Part shown: one piece after another, positions 18,201 through 30,280 of the stretch | Position numbering within the stretch: the stretch's first letter is position 1 | Layout: every line of letters starts with the position of its first letter | Source of the DNA: Terriglobales bacterium | Lineage (GTDB): Bacteria > Acidobacteriota > Terriglobia > Terriglobales > SCQP01 | Length of the DNA stretch: 33,619 nt | Assembly (NCBI GenBank): GCA_025450725.1 | Contig: JANWLQ010000053.1 | Location: forward strand, 1-33,619 | Reading direction: 5' to 3' | The notes under the pieces: model-generated | Databases searched by the model: none | What the model was told of the DNA's origin: nothing | The model's input: the letters and a program-made list of their open reading frames with translations, nothing else | Translations under genes and position numbers: made by a program

Positions 18201-20078
18201 GTGACGATCGGCACTGCCGGCCATGTCGACCACGGCAAGAGCGCGTTGGTCGAGGCGCTGACCGGCGTCCACCCCGACCGTTTGGCCGAGGAGCGCCGGC
18301 GAGGCATGACGCTGGACCTGGGATTCGGCCACTGCCGGCTCGAACAAGACGGTGTCGCTTTTGAGTGCGGCGTGGTCGACGTACCCGGACACGAGCGTTT
18401 CGTCCGCACCATGCTGGCCGGCGCGGCGGGCGTGGATGTCGTTCTCTTCGTTCTAGCTGCCGATGCCGGCGTGCAGCCGCAAACCGTCGAACATGCCGCG
18501 ATTCTTCGTCTCCTGGGCCTGAGGAGTGGGGTGGTGGCGGTGAGCAAATGCGACCTCGCGGAGGCTGGCCAGCGCGAAAAGGCGCGGCGCGAGGCGGCCG
18601 CGGTGCTGCCTGACTGGCCGGTGGTAGAGGTCAGCGTGCGCGACGGCAGCGGATTGGAGAAGTTGCGGCAAACGCTATGGCTGGCCGCGTCGCGCGCGCC
18701 CGAACGCGACCGACGCGGACCGGCCCGGCTGCCCATTGACCGTGCATTTTCAATGCCGGGCTTCGGCACGGTCGTGACAGGCACTCTGGCGCAGGGCACT
18801 CTCCATGTTGGCGACGAGTTGGAGGTGGCCGGCGGCGATCGGCGGCTACGCGTTCGCGGATTGCAGGCGCACGGCGAGAGCCTTCCAGAAGCGCACGCAG
18901 GCACCCGCGTCGCCGTCAATGTGGCCGGAGCCGAGGCGGGCGAATTGTCGCGCGGCGATGTACTGGCCGAGCGGGGCGTGTACCGCGCCAGCCTGCAAGT
19001 TGATGTTCTTCTCGACCTGCTTCCCGAGGCGAAGCTGAAAGGGCGCGACCGTGCCTATTTTCATTGGCAGGCCGCCGAGCGAATCGCCACCGTGGTTCGA
19101 TTGGAACGGGACGGGCGCGCCGCCCAGCTTCGATTCCAGCAGCCGGTGGCGGCCGCTTGCGGTGATCGATTCATACTGCGCCAGCTTTCACCTCCGCTTA
19201 CGATGGGCGGCGGCGTGGTGGTGGAGCCACATGCGCCGGCCCACCGGACGGCGAGCTTTGAAACTGTCGCCGCCACGTTGCACAAGCTTGCGGCGGCAGA
19301 TGACGACGAGGCGCTGCTGATCCGCATCGAGCGGGCCGGCAGCGCAGGATTGTTAGTCGCCGATTTGGTCGCGGCGCTCGGCCAAAGAACGGACGACCTC
19401 CGCGCGCGCCTCACAAGGCTCGCCCATCGCGGGGAGGTCGTCACTTCCCGCCGCCCTGAGGGGGTAATGCCCGGTCGCGTCATGGCCGCGGCCGAGGCGC
19501 GGATTCAAGCCGCTCTGGCGGCTTTTCATGCCGCGCAACCGAACGAGACAGGCGCCGCACTGGAATTGTTCGAGCCATTCCTTCCGCCGCACTGGGCGGC
19601 GGTCGCCATCGAGCGGCTCACCGCCTCAGGTGTTGTGCAGGCGGTCGCGGCCGGGCGCATCGCGCTCGCCAGCCACAGCCCGCAGCCCGCAGAGGGCGCA
19701 ACCGCGCTCCGGCGAAAAATCGAGGATCATTTCCGCGCCTCGGGCTTGACGATTGCGACGCTGCCGGCAGCTCTCGCCAATTTCGCAGAGGACTTCGCGC
19801 GCGCTCGCGGCATCGTCGCCTCGCTCGCCCGCGAGGGCGCGTTGATCGAATGCCAACCTGGCCTGTTCGTCCATCGTGAAGCGGTGGAGGCGCTGCACCA
19901 GCGCCTGGCGCAGCAGCGTGCGACGCATCCGCGATTCACGGTGACTGACTTCAAGGATTGGACCGGCCTCACCCGCAAGCACGCCATCCCTCTACTCGAG
20001 TACCTCGACCGAATTCGCGCCACCCGCCGCCAAGGCGACACCCGCGAAATCCTCCTCGTCTCCATCCAACGTCAATGA
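18201..20078 (+). CDS. selB: Selenocysteine-specific translation elongation factor SelB
   Basis: 'VTIGTAGHVDHGKSALVEALTGVHPDRLAEERRRGMTLDLGFGHCRL', 'VDVPGHERFVRTMLAGAAGVDVVLFVLAADAGVQPQTVEHAAILRLLG'; C-terminal winged helices ending 'FTVTDFKDWTGLTRKHAIPLLEYLDRIRATRRQGD'. GTG start at 18201 assumed. Confidence 0.93.
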   Translation: MTIGTAGHVDHGKSALVEALTGVHPDRLAEERRRGMTLDLGFGHCRLEQDGVAFECGVVDVPGHERFVRTMLAGAAGVDVVLFVLAADAGVQPQTVEHAAILRLLGLRSGVVAVSKCDLAEAGQREKARREAAAVLPDWPVVEVSVRDGSGLEKLRQTLWLAASRAPERDRRGPARLPIDRAFSMPGFGTVVTGTLAQGTLHVGDELEVAGGDRRLRVRGLQAHGESLPEAHAGTRVAVNVAGAEAGELSRGDVLAERGVYRASLQVDVLLDLLPEAKLKGRDRAYFHWQAAERIATVVRLERDGRAAQLRFQQPVAAACGDRFILRQLSPPLTMGGGVVVEPHAPAHRTASFETVAATLHKLAAADDDEALLIRIERAGSAGLLVADLVAALGQRTDDLRARLTRLAHRGEVVTSRRPEGVMPGRVMAAAEARIQAALAAFHAAQPNETGAALELFEPFLPPHWAAVAIERLTASGVVQAVAAGRIALASHSPQPAEGATALRRKIEDHFRASGLTIATLPAALANFAEDFARARGIVASLAREGALIECQPGLFVHREAVEALHQRLAQQRATHPRFTVTDFKDWTGLTRKHAIPLLEYLDRIRATRRQGDTREILLVSIQRQ

Positions 20079-20425
20079 GCAGGCGCCCAAGAGGTACCCA
20101 GACTGCGGGCGGCTTCAGCCAGGGCGTTGTCCACAGTCCAGAGGGGCGTCCCACTCGCCAGGCTGGACGCCAGCAGGTGGGAATCTACCCAGCCCAAACC
20201 CATATCGGACAAGCGGCGGGCGCGGACCATGGCCACAACGCCATCATGGGATGCCACCGATAGCCAGGGGATGGCGGCATAGCGTTCGAGAAGCCCTTGG
20301 CTCCGTTTGCCGAGCAGCAATTCTCCGAACACAATGGGATGACCGACGACGTTAAGACGTCTGATTGGATCATCCATCTGATCGGCCCAAGACGGTTCTG
20401 GGGACCCCGGCCTGCGGCCATCTCC
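20072..20425 (-). pseudogene. PIN-domain (VapC-like) toxin remnant
   Basis: Minus frame '...PSWADQMDDPIRRLNVVGHPIVFGELLLGKRSQGLLERYAAIPWLSVASHDGVVAMVRARRLSDMGLGWVDSHLLASSLASGTPLWTVDNALAEAARSLG' matches the VapC core; the N-terminal 'VDTSVW' appears degraded and no antitoxin-like ORF is recognised. Confidence 0.6.
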
Positions 20426-20589
20426 GTGGAGATGGGATCGAAGGTGCGGCGGAATTCGATTCACGACAGCTGGCCGCCCTTCGGAATTACGACCACCCCT
20501 GCACGGCGAGCTGCTCGCGCAGCGTGGCCGCGGTGTCGTGGGCGGACCCATAGCGCACCCCGGCAACCTCCGCTCGCTCAAAACAACCA

Positions 20590-20643
20590 TTGACAAGCCG
20601 CGGCAGGTTGCGGTTAAATATTCATTCGACGAATAATTATTCA
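20590..20643 (+). promoter_or_regulatory. argR promoter with ArgR (ARG box) operator
   Basis: TTGACA (20590-20595) and AT-rich -10 region (TTAAAT 20614-20619). cGAATAATTATTCA at 20630-20643 is one mismatch from TGAATNNNNATTCA, and a half-box (AAATATTCA) lies at 20616-20624. Confidence 0.65.
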
Positions 20644-20645
20644 CT

Positions 20646-21128
20646 GTGAGTAAAACTTTCCGGCACGAACAGATCCGCAAGCTGCTGCGCGCACGTCCGC
20701 TGCGCTCGCAGGCCGAGCTCGCGCTGGCGCTGCACCGCGCCGGCGTGGAGACCACGCAGGTCACGCTTTCGCGCGACCTCAAGGAGTTGGGGTTGGTGAA
20801 GACCCCGGCCGGCTACGTCGGCCTGGGCGGGGTTGAGGCGGTGGCGCCGGCGGGCGAAACCGGGGCTGGCACGACGGCCGCCATCAGCCATAGCGAGCAC
20901 ATCCTGGCCGAGTTCGTGCGCGACCTACGCCGCGCCGGCAATTTGCTGGTGGTCAAGACCGCCGCCGGCGCGGCCGCGACTGTGGGCGCCGCGCTCGACG
21001 CCGCGGGCTGGCCCGAGCTCGCCGGGTCGCTGGCCGGCGACGACACGGTTCTCGTCATTTGTGAAGATGCCCGCCGCCGCGGCCTGGTCGAACGCCGCCT
21101 GCGCGAAGCGCTCGCGCGCAAAGGATAA
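20646..21128 (+). CDS. argR: Arginine repressor ArgR
   Basis: 'RHEQIRKLLRARPLRSQAELALALHRAGVETTQVTLSRDLKELGLVKTPAGYV', C-terminal 'AGDDTVLVICEDARRRGLVERRLREAL'; adjacent arg genes. Confidence 0.93.
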   Translation: MSKTFRHEQIRKLLRARPLRSQAELALALHRAGVETTQVTLSRDLKELGLVKTPAGYVGLGGVEAVAPAGETGAGTTAAISHSEHILAEFVRDLRRAGNLLVVKTAAGAAATVGAALDAAGWPELAGSLAGDDTVLVICEDARRRGLVERRLREALARKG

Positions 21129-24747: not shown

Positions 24748-25749
24748 TTGTCCACAGTATTCAACCCGCCCTGGTGGCTGCGGAACGGGCACGCCAGCAC
24801 CGTCTACTCCTTCCTGCGCTCGCGGCGCATCGATCTCCCGCCCGCGCACGAGGACTGGCTGCGGGTGGAGACCGGTCCGGAGGGGCCGGTCGATCTTCTG
24901 CTGCGCAGCCATTGGCAGCGCGGCGCCGCCCCGGCTCTGCTGTTGGTCCATGGCCTGGAGGGATCGAGCGAAGCGGGCTACATGCTCACCACCGCCGCCG
25001 CCGCACTGGTTCGCGGCTGGCATGTGGTGCGCATGAACGTGCGCGGCTGCGGCGATTCGGAAATCCGCTGCGCAACACTGTACAATTCCGGCGTCAGCGA
25101 CGATGTCGGGCAAGCGCTTGCCTGGCTGGCCTCGCGGCCGCTGGTGAGCGCCGTCGCCATCATCGGTTTCTCTATGGGCGGCAACCTGGTATTGAAGTAC
25201 GCCGGCGAACGCGGTGCCGGTGGCGTGAGCGCCCCGCCTTTGGTTGCGGTCGCCGCAGTTTCCCCCTGCCTCGATCTCGCCGCCTCGGCCGACGCTCTGC
25301 ACCGGAAAGTGAATTATTTTTATGAGCGCCGCTTTCTGGAAAACCTCAAGCGCCGCCTTCGCCGCAACGCCGGTCGCTCTCCAGGCCGCTACCCGGTGGA
25401 ACGCCTGCCGACGATTGGATCCGTGCGCGCATTTGACGATGCGATTACCGCCCCCTTCACCGGCTACCGCGACGCCGACGACTACTACCATCGCGCCAGC
25501 GCCGCCCGGGTGCTGGCGAATATCCGCGTCCCCACCCTGATTCTGCACGCCGAGGATGACCCCTTCATCGTCATTACGCCGGCTTCGCGCGCCGTGCTGG
25601 CGGCGAATCCGGCCATCCAGTTCGCTCCCACTCCGCACGGCGGCCACTGCGCCTTCATCAACGCCCGCGGCGAAGAAGGCGTGTACTGGGCCGAAAACCG
25701 CGTGGTCGAATTCTGCGACCGCGAGTGGCGCCGCCAATGCCTCCAATAA
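24748..25749 (+). CDS. YheT/ABHD1-type alpha/beta hydrolase
   Basis: 'NPPWWLRNGHASTVYSFLRSR', 'LLVHGLEGSSEAGYM', 'RGCGDSE', 'GFSMGGNLVLKYAGE', 'ILHAEDDPFI...PHGGHCAF'. TTG start. Confidence 0.88.
   Translation: MSTVFNPPWWLRNGHASTVYSFLRSRRIDLPPAHEDWLRVETGPEGPVDLLLRSHWQRGAAPALLLVHGLEGSSEAGYMLTTAAAALVRGWHVVRMNVRGCGDSEIRCATLYNSGVSDDVGQALAWLASRPLVSAVAIIGFSMGGNLVLKYAGERGAGGVSAPPLVAVAAVSPCLDLAASADALHRKVNYFYERRFLENLKRRLRRNAGRSPGRYPVERLPTIGSVRAFDDAITAPFTGYRDADDYYHRASAARVLANIRVPTLILHAEDDPFIVITPASRAVLAANPAIQFAPTPHGGHCAFINARGEEGVYWAENRVVEFCDREWRRQCLQ
25385..25726 (+). repeat. Direct repeat copy A (3' part of the YheT-type gene)
   Basis: 342 bp; aligns by eye with 27427-27769 with 14 substitutions and one 1-nt indel (about 96% identity). 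Confidence 0.93.
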
Positions 25750-25759
25750 TGTTTCGGAT

Positions 25760-26327
25760 TGCCGCCCGAAACCGAATCTGCCTTATTGCATTGTCGCCGC
25801 CCGAGAAAGCGCCTTCGCAGCGAACCTGGAGGGATCTCATCGAGCATGCCCCGTTTGCGTCCAGGAGAATCGTAGTCGGCGTTATCTGCAATCGTGCTAA
25901 CGTCGCCCACCACAGGGGGATGAATACGATTGGAGTGCTGCTCTTTTCGTCATAGGTGGCGCTACTTGCATCGCCAGCATCAGGAACGATCGTCAGTGTT
26001 CCGCACCCGTCAGCTCTCGATGTTTTAACCAGACGCTGCCATTGCGGCAACTCTTTTCGGCAGTAAGGGCGATTCCCCGAGACGTAGTGAATTACGACGC
26101 AGCGGTGCGGCTGTATTTCCATTCGGCTCCGGTGTTCCCGGCTATACGCGGTAATGGCCGGGAGCTCGGTTCCAGGTGGCAGCAGTTTCATTCGAATCGG
26201 GCGCTTGCCACACCCGTACCACCGCATAGGCCAATACCACTCCGAGCAGGAGCAAGCGTGAGATCGATCGCAACGTGAACAACTTGGCGGCCTTCATGGT
26301 ACTTATGTTTTTTAATTTGACGTCCAT
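25760..26327 (-). pseudogene. Membrane-anchored redoxin/TlpA-like thioredoxin-fold gene, frameshifted
   Basis: N-terminal TM 'MKAAKLFTLRSISRLLLLGVVLAYAVVRVWQAP' lies in a different frame from the body 'KLLPPGTELPAITAYSREHRSRMEIQPHRCVVIHYVSGNRPYCRKELPQWQRLVK...TPTTILLDANG'; the C-terminus then reads into unrelated sequence. Confidence 0.6.
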
Positions 26328-27115
26328 GTCGTCGCCAACTTGGCTATGTTCTCTACTCTTAGGTATTCAATTTTACTGTTCGCTGGAACAAAGTCCAGGC
26401 CAAGTTGCTCCTTAACTAACGCCATTAGAGGCGGGCCGTCCGGCGCAGCCTCAGAAGAAACATCAAGTCCGATTTCATAGGCTCCGCCCAAGCCAGTATT
26501 GTCAACAATGGGACGATCTACAGCGCTGCCATGAAACGCGTAATACCTCTGATTCAAATAACTCACTAGAGCCGTGACGGAGCCGAATGTTATATGCCCA
26601 GGCGCAAAAACAGTTGTGGGCGTGCTGCCTGCTGTCGTAGCATGAAATTTTGGCCCGCTCTTGCCAATGACCAGCGCATAGGCGGCGCTGTCCCGTTGCT
26701 CGCGATGTACCCGCAGGGCGAATGCGTTTTCGAGAACGGAGCGCAAGAGGCCCGTCATTTCGGAATCGCTTGCAGGCGAGTCAGATTTGATTTCGACCTG
26801 ATAGCGGTCTTGCCCAATCCAGTCGGGTGCATTTTGAATCTGCTCGCCAAACACTCCATACGCTTTAGAGATCAAACCTCGCACTGTGCAGAATCCGCAT
26901 GACAATCGTACCGGGTCTGTCCGTAATGGATCTCTGATGCCGGGCAAACAATCCCCACCTCGCCCGGATCGCGCACACACCCACTTTACCACCGCCGTGC
27001 TTAGGGGCGGCCCCGAGGCATTCTGCGAATAAAGGTCGGCTGAAAACGCCATGAGCAAGATGAGGGTCGCGACCGCCGAACCCCGCAATTTTAATGAATT
27101 CGACATGCATTGCAT
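26312..27115 (-). CDS. TIGR03435-family (acidobacterial paralogous family) protein
   Basis: Signal-like N-terminus, then 'SCGFCTVRGLISKAYGVFGEQIQNAPDWIGQDRYQVEIKSD...MTGLLRSVLENAFALRVHREQRDSAAYALVIGKSGPKF...VDNTGLGGAYEIGLDV...LMALVKEQLGLDF'. Confidence 0.85.
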   Translation of the reverse strand: MQCMSNSLKLRGSAVATLILLMAFSADLYSQNASGPPLSTAVVKWVCARSGRGGDCLPGIRDPLRTDPVRLSCGFCTVRGLISKAYGVFGEQIQNAPDWIGQDRYQVEIKSDSPASDSEMTGLLRSVLENAFALRVHREQRDSAAYALVIGKSGPKFHATTAGSTPTTVFAPGHITFGSVTALVSYLNQRYYAFHGSAVDRPIVDNTGLGGAYEIGLDVSSEAAPDGPPLMALVKEQLGLDFVPANSKIEYLRVENIAKLATTWTSN

Positions 27116-27426
27116 ATTTGGTCCTCATTTCGGTGCGTCGGTTCCCCTGCATTTTGTCTCGGAGCAAATCCAATACAGTTCCGCTCGTAATGTACAGAAT
27201 TCGTGATCAGTTTGTGAGCGCCGATGCGGTTAGCGCGGCCGACTGCGATCGCCATGGCAGGACCCTCAACGCCTTGCCCGCCGCATTTACCTCAAGTGCA
27301 TCACCTGCACGATCAAGGGCTCTAATTGTTACGAGGACCGAGTTCTCAACAAAATAGATTAGAGGAAAGTTGCTGCAAGCAACTTGTAGCACGCTGCTGG
27401 AAAAAGCGCAAGCACAGGGCCGCCGT

Positions 27427-27769
27427 GCCGCTACCCGGTGGAACGCCTACCGACGGTTGGATCCGTGCGCGCATTTGACGATGCGATTGCCGCCCCCTTC
27501 ACTGGCTACCGAGACGCCGACGACTACTACCATCGCGCCGGCGCCGCCCGGGTGCTGGCGAATATCCGCGTCCCCACCCTGATCCTGCATGCCGAGGATG
27601 AACCCTTCATCGTCAATTACGCCGGCTTCGCGCGCCGTGCTGGCGGCGAATCCGGCCGTCCAGTTCGCTCCCACTCCGTACGGCGGCCACTGCGCCTTCA
27701 TCAACACCCGCCGCGAAGAAGGCGTGTACTGCGCCGAAAACCGCGTGGTCGAATTCTGCGACCGCGAGT
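27427..27769 (+). pseudogene. Truncated, frameshifted second copy of the yheT 3' end (direct repeat copy B)
   Basis: 'VERLPTVGSVRAFDDAIAAPFTGYRDADDYYHRAGAARVLANIRVPTLILHAEDEPFIV', then frameshift (GTCATTACG in A versus GTCAATTACG in B), continuing in another frame as 'ITPASRAVLAANPAVQFAPTPYGGHCAFIN'. Confidence 0.92.
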
Positions 27770-27771
27770 CG

Positions 27772-28509
27772 TTAAACGACCGGCGTCGGTGCAAAAGTCC
27801 CAGCGGAGCGGACGAGAATTGCGGATCCGCCGGCCACGAATGCGCTCGCCGGAGAATGGGCCAGTGCCGCTGCGAAACGGCGGCCATATAGCGGTTCCAT
27901 TTCACCCTGCAGGATCGGGCTCTGGCCTTCCCAAACGGTCCAGCGGGGATGCTCGACCTGGTATTCCGAAGCGGAGCCGTCGCGGCGACGAACGTATCCC
28001 CAATAGTGTTCCGTTATGTATGCCGCCAGCGAGTCTGGCGGCGGAATTCGTCCGGCGCCGCAGCGGGTGGCGCCCATGGCGTATCGTTCGCCGCGGTGCC
28101 GCCAGCAGTAGGCGATCATCGAACCGTCGGGCACCGGCATACTCTCCCGCGCCATAGGTACACGCACATAGTTCTCGTTGTAACACCAGCGCGCGGTCCA
28201 CGCGATGGCACGGCGCGGGACCAATTCCTTGACGAAAACGACGCCTCGACGCTCAGTACCGTTCAAGGCGCGGCGCACGTAGAAGCGCAGGTTGACCTCC
28301 TCGAAGTCGCGATGGAATGGGATTGGAATTCCGCGGACGCGGGTGTCGCGAAACTGAAAGCCGACGAGGCTGATATAGACCCGGCCCTGCCATGCATCCA
28401 ACTCAGTCCCGGCGGGGACCAGCGGCTGCAATGCATCCGGATCCGCCTCGAAGTTGAGCATCACCAGATCGCACCAAATGGCGGAAAGGAAAACCGGACG
28501 AGGGCGCAC
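27772..28509 (-). CDS. DUF2071 (YqjF-like) family protein
   Basis: 'FLSAIWCDLVMLNFEADPDALQPLVPAGTELDAWQGRVYISLVGFQFRDTRVRGIPIPFHRDFEEVNLRFYVRR', 'KELVPRRAIAWTARWCYNENYV'. Confidence 0.85.
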   Translation of the reverse strand: MRPRPVFLSAIWCDLVMLNFEADPDALQPLVPAGTELDAWQGRVYISLVGFQFRDTRVRGIPIPFHRDFEEVNLRFYVRRALNGTERRGVVFVKELVPRRAIAWTARWCYNENYVRVPMARESMPVPDGSMIAYCWRHRGERYAMGATRCGAGRIPPPDSLAAYITEHYWGYVRRRDGSASEYQVEHPRWTVWEGQSPILQGEMEPLYGRRFAAALAHSPASAFVAGGSAILVRSAGTFAPTPVV

Positions 28510-28554
28510 GGTTCCATCATACGCGGCGCAATACTCGAAACTTGAAACTGAAAA

Positions 28555-29982
28555 CTAGTTCAACTGCTCCGCCAGCCGGATGAGGGTGCGGGCCAGGGTC
28601 TGATTCGACTGCCGCTCCTGTTCGATCTTGCGGATGGAGTGAATCACGGTCGAGTGGTGCTTGCCGCCGAAGAAGCGCGCGATTTCGGGCAGCGACACAT
28701 CAATCATCTGCCGGGTCAGATACATGGCCACCTGGCGGGGAAAAACGATCTGCTTGGAATTGTTGCGCGCCTTCAGGTCGGCCACGCGCAGGTTGAAGGC
28801 CTCGGCCACCGCCTTGGCAATAATTTCTATGTCGAGCTTGCGCTGTTGCTGGTCGAGAAGGTTGCGCAACGCCTCCTGGGCGCTGGGAATGCTGACCGGC
28901 AATCCCTTAAGGGCGCAGTAGGCGAGGAGGCGCACCATGGCGCCCTCGAGTTCGCGCACGTTGCTCTTGATTTTCGAGGCCACGAAGCTGGCCACCTCGG
29001 CGTTTAGTTCCAGCGTGTCGGGCCGCTTGTCGCGCTCGATCTGCGCCTTTTCCATGAGGATCGCGGTTCGGGTTTCCAGATCCGGCGGCTGCAGGTCGGC
29101 GATCATGCCCATGGCGAAACGGGAACGCACGCGCTCCTCGAGCTGCGAAAGTTCCTTGGGCGGACGGTCGCTTGATATCACCACCTGTTTGCCGGCGCCG
29201 TACAGCGCGTTGAAGGTGTGGAAAAACTCCTCCTGAATGCGTTCCTTGTTGGCGATGAACTGGATGTCGTCAATGAGCAGCACGTCGACCGACCGGAAAC
29301 GATCGCGGAAGGCGATCATGCCGTCATGCCGCAGCGCGCCGATCATTTCATTGGTGAAGACCTCGGCGGTAATGTACTCGATGCGCATGTGCGCGCCGCG
29401 TTCCTTGGCCTTGTGGCCGATCGCGTGCATGAGGTGGGTCTTACCCATTCCCACGCCGCCATAGAGGAATAGTGGGTTGTAGGCCTCGCCGGGCCGTTCG
29501 GCGGCGGCAACGGCAGCCGCCTGGGCAAACTTGTTGGAATCGCCGACGACAAAGTTATCGAAGGTGTAGTCGGGCTTGAGCGAGGAGGTGTCGAAATCGA
29601 AGCGCTTCTGCACCGGGCGGTCCGAGCGCGCACGTTCGGGCAGCGAAGTTCCCGGCAAATGATCATGGGCGGGGGCGGCGGCGGGAGCGGGGGCGACCGC
29701 AGGCGCGGAGACAACCACATCCACGGTTTTCACGGAATCATCGAGGCGCAGGCGGCGGATGGCCGATTCGATCTGGGGCTTGAACTTCTCCGCGCAGGGC
29801 TGCAGCTCGGTCGAGGGCACGCTGATGGTGAGCTTGCCGTTCTCCAAACTTTCCTGACGGGTGGGCCGCAGCCAAAGGTTGAAGCGGTGCGGATTGACCG
29901 TCTTGCGAATCTCCCCCAAAATGTCATCCCAGGGAAACTGAGTTTTCTGGGTCGATTGCGACTTGGGAGTGGGTGAAGCCAT
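28555..29982 (-). CDS. dnaA: Chromosomal replication initiator protein DnaA
   Basis: 'YTFDNFVVGDSNKFAQAAAVAAAERPGEAYNPLFLYGGVGMGKTHLMHAIGH', 'DVLLIDDIQFIANKERIQEEFFHTFNAL', 'FPRQVAMYLTRQMIDVSLPEIARFFGGKHHSTVIHSIRKIE'. Start taken at MASPTPK (29982). Confidence 0.96.
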   Translation of the reverse strand: MASPTPKSQSTQKTQFPWDDILGEIRKTVNPHRFNLWLRPTRQESLENGKLTISVPSTELQPCAEKFKPQIESAIRRLRLDDSVKTVDVVVSAPAVAPAPAAAPAHDHLPGTSLPERARSDRPVQKRFDFDTSSLKPDYTFDNFVVGDSNKFAQAAAVAAAERPGEAYNPLFLYGGVGMGKTHLMHAIGHKAKERGAHMRIEYITAEVFTNEMIGALRHDGMIAFRDRFRSVDVLLIDDIQFIANKERIQEEFFHTFNALYGAGKQVVISSDRPPKELSQLEERVRSRFAMGMIADLQPPDLETRTAILMEKAQIERDKRPDTLELNAEVASFVASKIKSNVRELEGAMVRLLAYCALKGLPVSIPSAQEALRNLLDQQQRKLDIEIIAKAVAEAFNLRVADLKARNNSKQIVFPRQVAMYLTRQMIDVSLPEIARFFGGKHHSTVIHSIRKIEQERQSNQTLARTLIRLAEQLN

Positions 29983-30060
29983 GCGGAGAGTGACCGAACC
30001 GGCTGCTAGCATCTCACACACTCCGGCGTTTGGAACGAAGAGTTGAAAAAAAATTTGCGC

Positions 30061-30066
30061 TATAAT
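30061..30066 (+). promoter_or_regulatory. Candidate -10 box (TATAAT) upstream of rpmH
   Basis: TATAAT in an AT-rich tract in the dnaA-rpmH intergenic gap; no convincing -35 at 16-18 nt spacing. Confidence 0.35.
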
Positions 30067-30124
30067 AATTCTTGTCCGTTGCTCCCTGCCAACCCTGCGC
30101 AGCCGTCGCGGAAGACAGTACACT

Positions 30125-30280
30125 ATGCCCAAGAGAACTTTTCAACCCAACCGCCGCAGCCGCAGCAAAACCCATGGATTCCGCACCCGCATGGAGACCA
30201 AGAATGGACGGGCCGTGCTCTCCCGGCGTCGCGCCAAGGGTCGGAAGCGGGTTGCCGTCACCGCCGGTTACCGCGATTAA
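30125..30280 (+). CDS. rpmH: 50S ribosomal protein L34
   Basis: Translated by hand (below the ORF-track length cutoff): [51 protein letters not shown]. Confidence 0.96.

Follow-up and report, generated by a model that had tools for sequence, protein, structure and literature searches.

Downstream of a yheT-type gene in an uncultured acidobacterium lies what is very probably a decayed partial duplicate of that gene, caught up in an accretion of foreign genes rather than carried by a mobile element. The genome is an uncultured Acidobacteriota assembly of 2.5 Mb, whose closest named relatives are metagenome-assembled Acidobacteriota; all coordinates refer to the window – the whole stretch of 33,619 nucleotides that was analysed. 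In outline, a direct duplication of 342 bp borders a low-GC block on either side, and the right-hand copy abuts a further gene that would also have arrived from elsewhere.

The duplicated segment and the gene that holds it

The yheT-type alpha/beta hydrolase gene (24748–25749, plus strand), a housekeeping gene, is intact: its product matches Abhydrolase_1 and, below the equivalog cut-off, a PRK10985-like model, and is 71–75% identical to its counterparts in four members of the genus. The repeat corresponds to the 3' third of this gene. Its first copy, copy A (25385–25726, plus strand), lies within the gene, 23 bp short of whose own stop codon (25747–25749) the repeat ends; the second, copy B (27427–27769, plus strand), is a yheT pseudogene fragment frameshifted relative to it. 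The two are 95.6% identical (nucleotide match, E = 9e-157), with 14 substitutions and a single extra A (27615 in copy B) between them; on the coordinates of the copies and on these counts our alignment agrees with the initial annotation. The 2.5-Mb assembly contains no third copy.

The junctions, which had been described as sharp, are so by a statistical yardstick as well. When the next 120 bp beyond each edge were aligned, similarity was not significant, shuffled sequences equalling the score in 9% of cases on the left and 12% on the right. A candidate leftward extension of the repeat, through the CTGG and CAAGC that both flanks share if gaps are allowed, did not stand out from shuffles either and was set aside. 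On its right, copy B ends two bases from the stop codon of a DUF2071 gene; measured to the stop codon of the gene holding copy A, it lacks the last 23 bp of yheT, and its reading frame meets no stop until 27891.

Which of the two bears the original end of the gene can be argued from length. The yheT gene ends 11 codons past a conserved EF, compared with 8–14 codons in relatives with undisturbed ends; because this tail is of normal length, while the frame of copy B runs open to 27891, the end attached to copy A is favoured as the native one. The argument is a moderate one, since a chance stop codon within seven codons of the junction is not rare and would be expected in roughly a quarter of cases. 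The first 23 bp of the block between the copies (25727–27426) are probably still yheT.

Polarity of the two copies and decay of copy B

The direction of change was read from 13 relatives – four of the genus and nine of the family – by comparing codons at the 14 differing sites. At nearly all of them the base of copy A is that of the relatives, so that copy A has the ancestral state and copy B is derived at most differing sites. At nine sites none of the 13 relatives has the copy B base, and the copy A base is common or at least present there (weakly so at 25663, where only one of the 13 has it); at three further sites the copy B base is the rarer of the two. Of the remainder, 25542 is a tie and 25669 slightly favours copy B.

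The kind of change is as telling as its direction. Nine of the 14 substitutions are replacements (nonsynonymous), against a neutral expectation of 68–75%, whereas under purifying selection with omega at 0.1 nine or more would arise with P of about 3e-4; some strike residues that are constant across these relatives, among them the Ser of RASAAR and the Trp of YWAE. With a frameshift, a neutral fraction of replacements and invariant residues lost, copy B has the marks of a decayed partial duplicate. Because of this polarity, these lost residues and the neutral replacement fraction, copy B is a non-functional copy that has decayed without selection since the duplication, and copy A was the copy under selection, part of a working yheT. 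The initial annotation had taken the duplication to be real and not recent, and both the ancestral state of copy A and the lack of the block in relatives support it.

The block between the copies

The block (25727–27426) has a GC content of 0.53–0.57, against 0.67 in yheT, and no DNA match to it was found in 20 relatives or elsewhere in its own genome. It had been described as unrelated minus-strand genes, namely a TIGR03435 protein and a redoxin remnant, and profile matches bear out both. The redoxin-like (AhpC-TSA/TlpA-type) pseudogene (25742–26300, minus strand) matches AhpC-TSA at E = 3.6e-4, below the gathering score; its membrane segment and its domain lie in separate frames, which form one frame in relatives, so the frame is apparently broken. 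The TIGR03435/DUF3738 gene (26312–27115, minus strand) is intact, scoring 125 bits against a curated NCBIfam cut-off of 40 for TIGR03435 (DUF3738, E = 1.8e-31), and is followed by 0.3 kb of low-GC DNA before copy B.

The source of this gene was sought among 399 genomes of the class, none of which gave a match at E ≤ 1e-38; the best relative of its protein, 37% identical, is in the genus member G001. No convincing redoxin relative lay beside the TIGR03435 relatives in the loci fetched, which gives no sign of a conserved redoxin–TIGR03435 pair, and in the collection of papers searched none covered both TIGR03435 and Acidobacteria. By its score the gene is a member of its family; it differs from the other TIGR03435 loci examined in that those lack a flanking duplicated fragment of a host gene.

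The genome, small as it is, holds about a dozen TIGR03435 loci (on contigs C82, C98, C152, C175, C160 and others; loci L085–L095), with two in tandem on C98; the same query found none in the genus member G004. Several contigs share short GC-rich intergenic repeats near their TIGR03435 genes, with a motif around GCCCGCGCCAATAAACGCAGC (L093 377–624 and 1363–1464; L086 986–1049). A 71-bp stretch of the window (20412–20482), in a frame (20072–20782) that looks PIN-like by eye, is 79% identical to positions 1986–2056 of L088, taken from another contig of this genome, one with a TIGR03435 gene.

The yheT–dnaA gap across the genus

Elsewhere in the genus the gene order is argF-argG-argH-yheT followed by dnaA on the opposite strand, yheT and dnaA being convergent, and to judge by the members compared this order is ancestral. 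The block is lacking in the relatives, in which yheT stands beside dnaA. In G001 the two genes nearly touch; in G002 their conserved ends lie about 220 bp apart. The gap in G004 has grown to 1.38 kb and holds a ParE-type toxin gene, an adjoining small gene and an unrelated alpha/beta hydrolase. (The toxin, at locus L036 on contig C1, matches ParE_toxin at E = 4e-15, and the small gene may be its antitoxin; the yheT of this genome runs on into the insert, acquiring a longer C-terminal tail.) The G003 contig breaks off after 0.3 kb of the gap, inside a different minus-strand frame; this frame, 3' of yheT at the end of C32 (L035 6086–6325), resembles by eye the end of a PIN-domain (VapC-like) protein.

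In the present genome dnaA (28555–30132, minus strand), syntenic with yheT in G001, G002 and G004, forms the right-hand border of a gap of 2.8 kb that contains the redoxin pseudogene, the TIGR03435 gene, low-GC DNA, copy B and the DUF2071 gene (27772–28509, minus strand; DUF2071, E = 5e-57). This last gene has no match in the other four genus members, G001–G004, some of whose genomes are incomplete, and the closest relative, at 52% identity, comes from a different family; because of both it is probably an arrival too, part of the same accretion. An insertion that ends at 27769, as had been proposed, is thus at odds with the genus, in which the neighbouring gene is missing as well, and the whole of 25750–28510 reads as a mosaic of low-GC block, copy B and DUF2071. 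Because G004 and the present genome carry different genes there, the yheT–dnaA gap appears, from this comparison of gene content, to be a permissive site that has repeatedly received foreign genes in the genus.

Search for a mobile element

Domain searches found only the redoxin-like pseudogene, TIGR03435 and DUF2071 encoded in the insert, with no integrase or transposase – as the initial annotation had it – and no replication or mobility gene. The inverted repeats of the block are 12 nt long and internal, unlike those of a transposon or insertion sequence. Searches for an att-like repeat or a second instance found none; nor did the block match a plasmid, by DNA or protein, or have a viral relative. 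The window has no tRNA, and Rfam gave no credible match in this region. For want of recurrence and of plasmid, viral, tRNA, Rfam or terminal-repeat support, the block was rejected as a mobile element.

Recurrence was sought on both sides of the arrangement. Twelve TIGR03435 loci – eleven fetched from the genome itself, to which its self-comparison was confined, and one from G001 – were each compared with themselves to detect duplicated flanks, and showed only paralogues, tandem repeats and a tRNA-like duplicate; the idea that TIGR03435 genes are recurrently flanked by host-gene fragments was dropped. The tRNA-like case, a near-identical 80-bp pair with 1.9 kb spacing (L093 4758–4837 and 6632–6711) that looks by eye like a duplicated tRNA gene, accounts for the only other high-identity direct repeat among these loci. 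Twenty loci from the genome collection that surround yheT homologues, some of them on contigs already described, showed no second yheT fragment. On present evidence, the duplication and its insert are a single event, and it is highly improbable that a small integrase-less element with a yheT homology arm enters by host recombination and inserts genes at yheT–dnaA in the genus.

How the arrangement may have arisen

The reading we prefer is that the convergent yheT–dnaA gap would have collected a low-GC foreign piece (the redoxin pseudogene with the TIGR03435 gene), copy B and DUF2071, copy B being a second copy of the 3' third of the lineage's own yheT. The pre-insertion sequence has to be inferred from the one genome of the species, and the route is put forward tentatively: most likely, illegitimate joining or template switching, in at least one step, attached a 3' piece of yheT, copied within this genome, to foreign DNA. 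It is favoured because the end of copy A looks native and copy B looks like a joined fragment. A plain tandem duplication of 342 bp, followed by insertion exactly at the joint, would need a coincidence and is not favoured. The pseudogene fragments that partial gene duplication leaves next to horizontally acquired genes – truncated second copies of a gene of the host, in neutral decay, with neighbours that close relatives lack – differ in nothing essential from copy B, whose location happens to be the yheT–dnaA gap.

The initial annotation had left the choice between single-crossover integration of a circular molecule and a duplication followed by insertion; the second, with one or more insertions, fits better, and the first in its simple form runs into the fact that copy B abuts DUF2071. 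A single-crossover (Campbell) integration of a circle of about 2 kb carrying a yheT segment, with DUF2071 arriving before or after, would account for the direct repeat of the homology segment on either side of the insert, for the four junction flanks all being different, for the chromosomal yheT to the left of copy A and for the foreign DNA between the copies. Yet it is copy A that bears a tail of normal length, and copy B, which in this one genome sits against DUF2071, does not continue into the end of yheT, so that copy B would have to have been trimmed later; nor does the insert hold a replication or mobility gene or match a plasmid. We rank such a circle next, as possible but doubtful, and retain it because loss of the copy B tail when DUF2071 arrived could rescue it. 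If it were true, a yheT of the same species without the block would run from GCGAGT through CGTTAAAC to DUF2071, the allele reading ...GCGAGTCGTTAAAC into that gene; one ending in ...GCGAGTGGCGCCGCCAATGCCTCCAATAA would speak against it.

The geometry also recalls prophage e14 in icd of Escherichia coli K-12, with a complete gene on one side, a displaced 3' fragment on the other and an insert between. There the duplicate (icdC) is 165 bp long with 12 differences, e14 has an integrase, and the two icd 3' ends differ almost only silently (PMC11148124). An integrase-type insertion at the 3' end of yheT that supplied a replacement end, and has since lost its integrase, is very unlikely here: the element would span only 1.7 kb without an integrase, it is copy A that is ancestral, copy B lacks the last 23 bp of the gene, and nine replacements in 14 and a frameshift stand in place of silent changes. 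Differences that are mostly non-silent, and nearly all derived in one neutrally decayed copy, are not those of a replacement end. Equally, a fragmented assembly (230 contigs, 75% complete) could in principle have joined another strain's allele as copy B, but this is very unlikely, because copy B decays neutrally, with the derived base at most sites, whereas in a working allele most differences would be silent and the frame would be kept; moreover, both junctions link the repeat to unique sequence.

Implications

The phenomenon is ordinary genome plasticity and nothing points to a new mobile element; beyond its value as an example and as a caution for annotation – copy B should not be annotated as a second yheT – it has no special significance. 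As an example, it offers a polarised case of foreign genes accumulating at a convergent junction in the Acidobacteriota, in which the duplicate of a conserved gene, in neutral decay, is left as a footprint from which age can be gauged.
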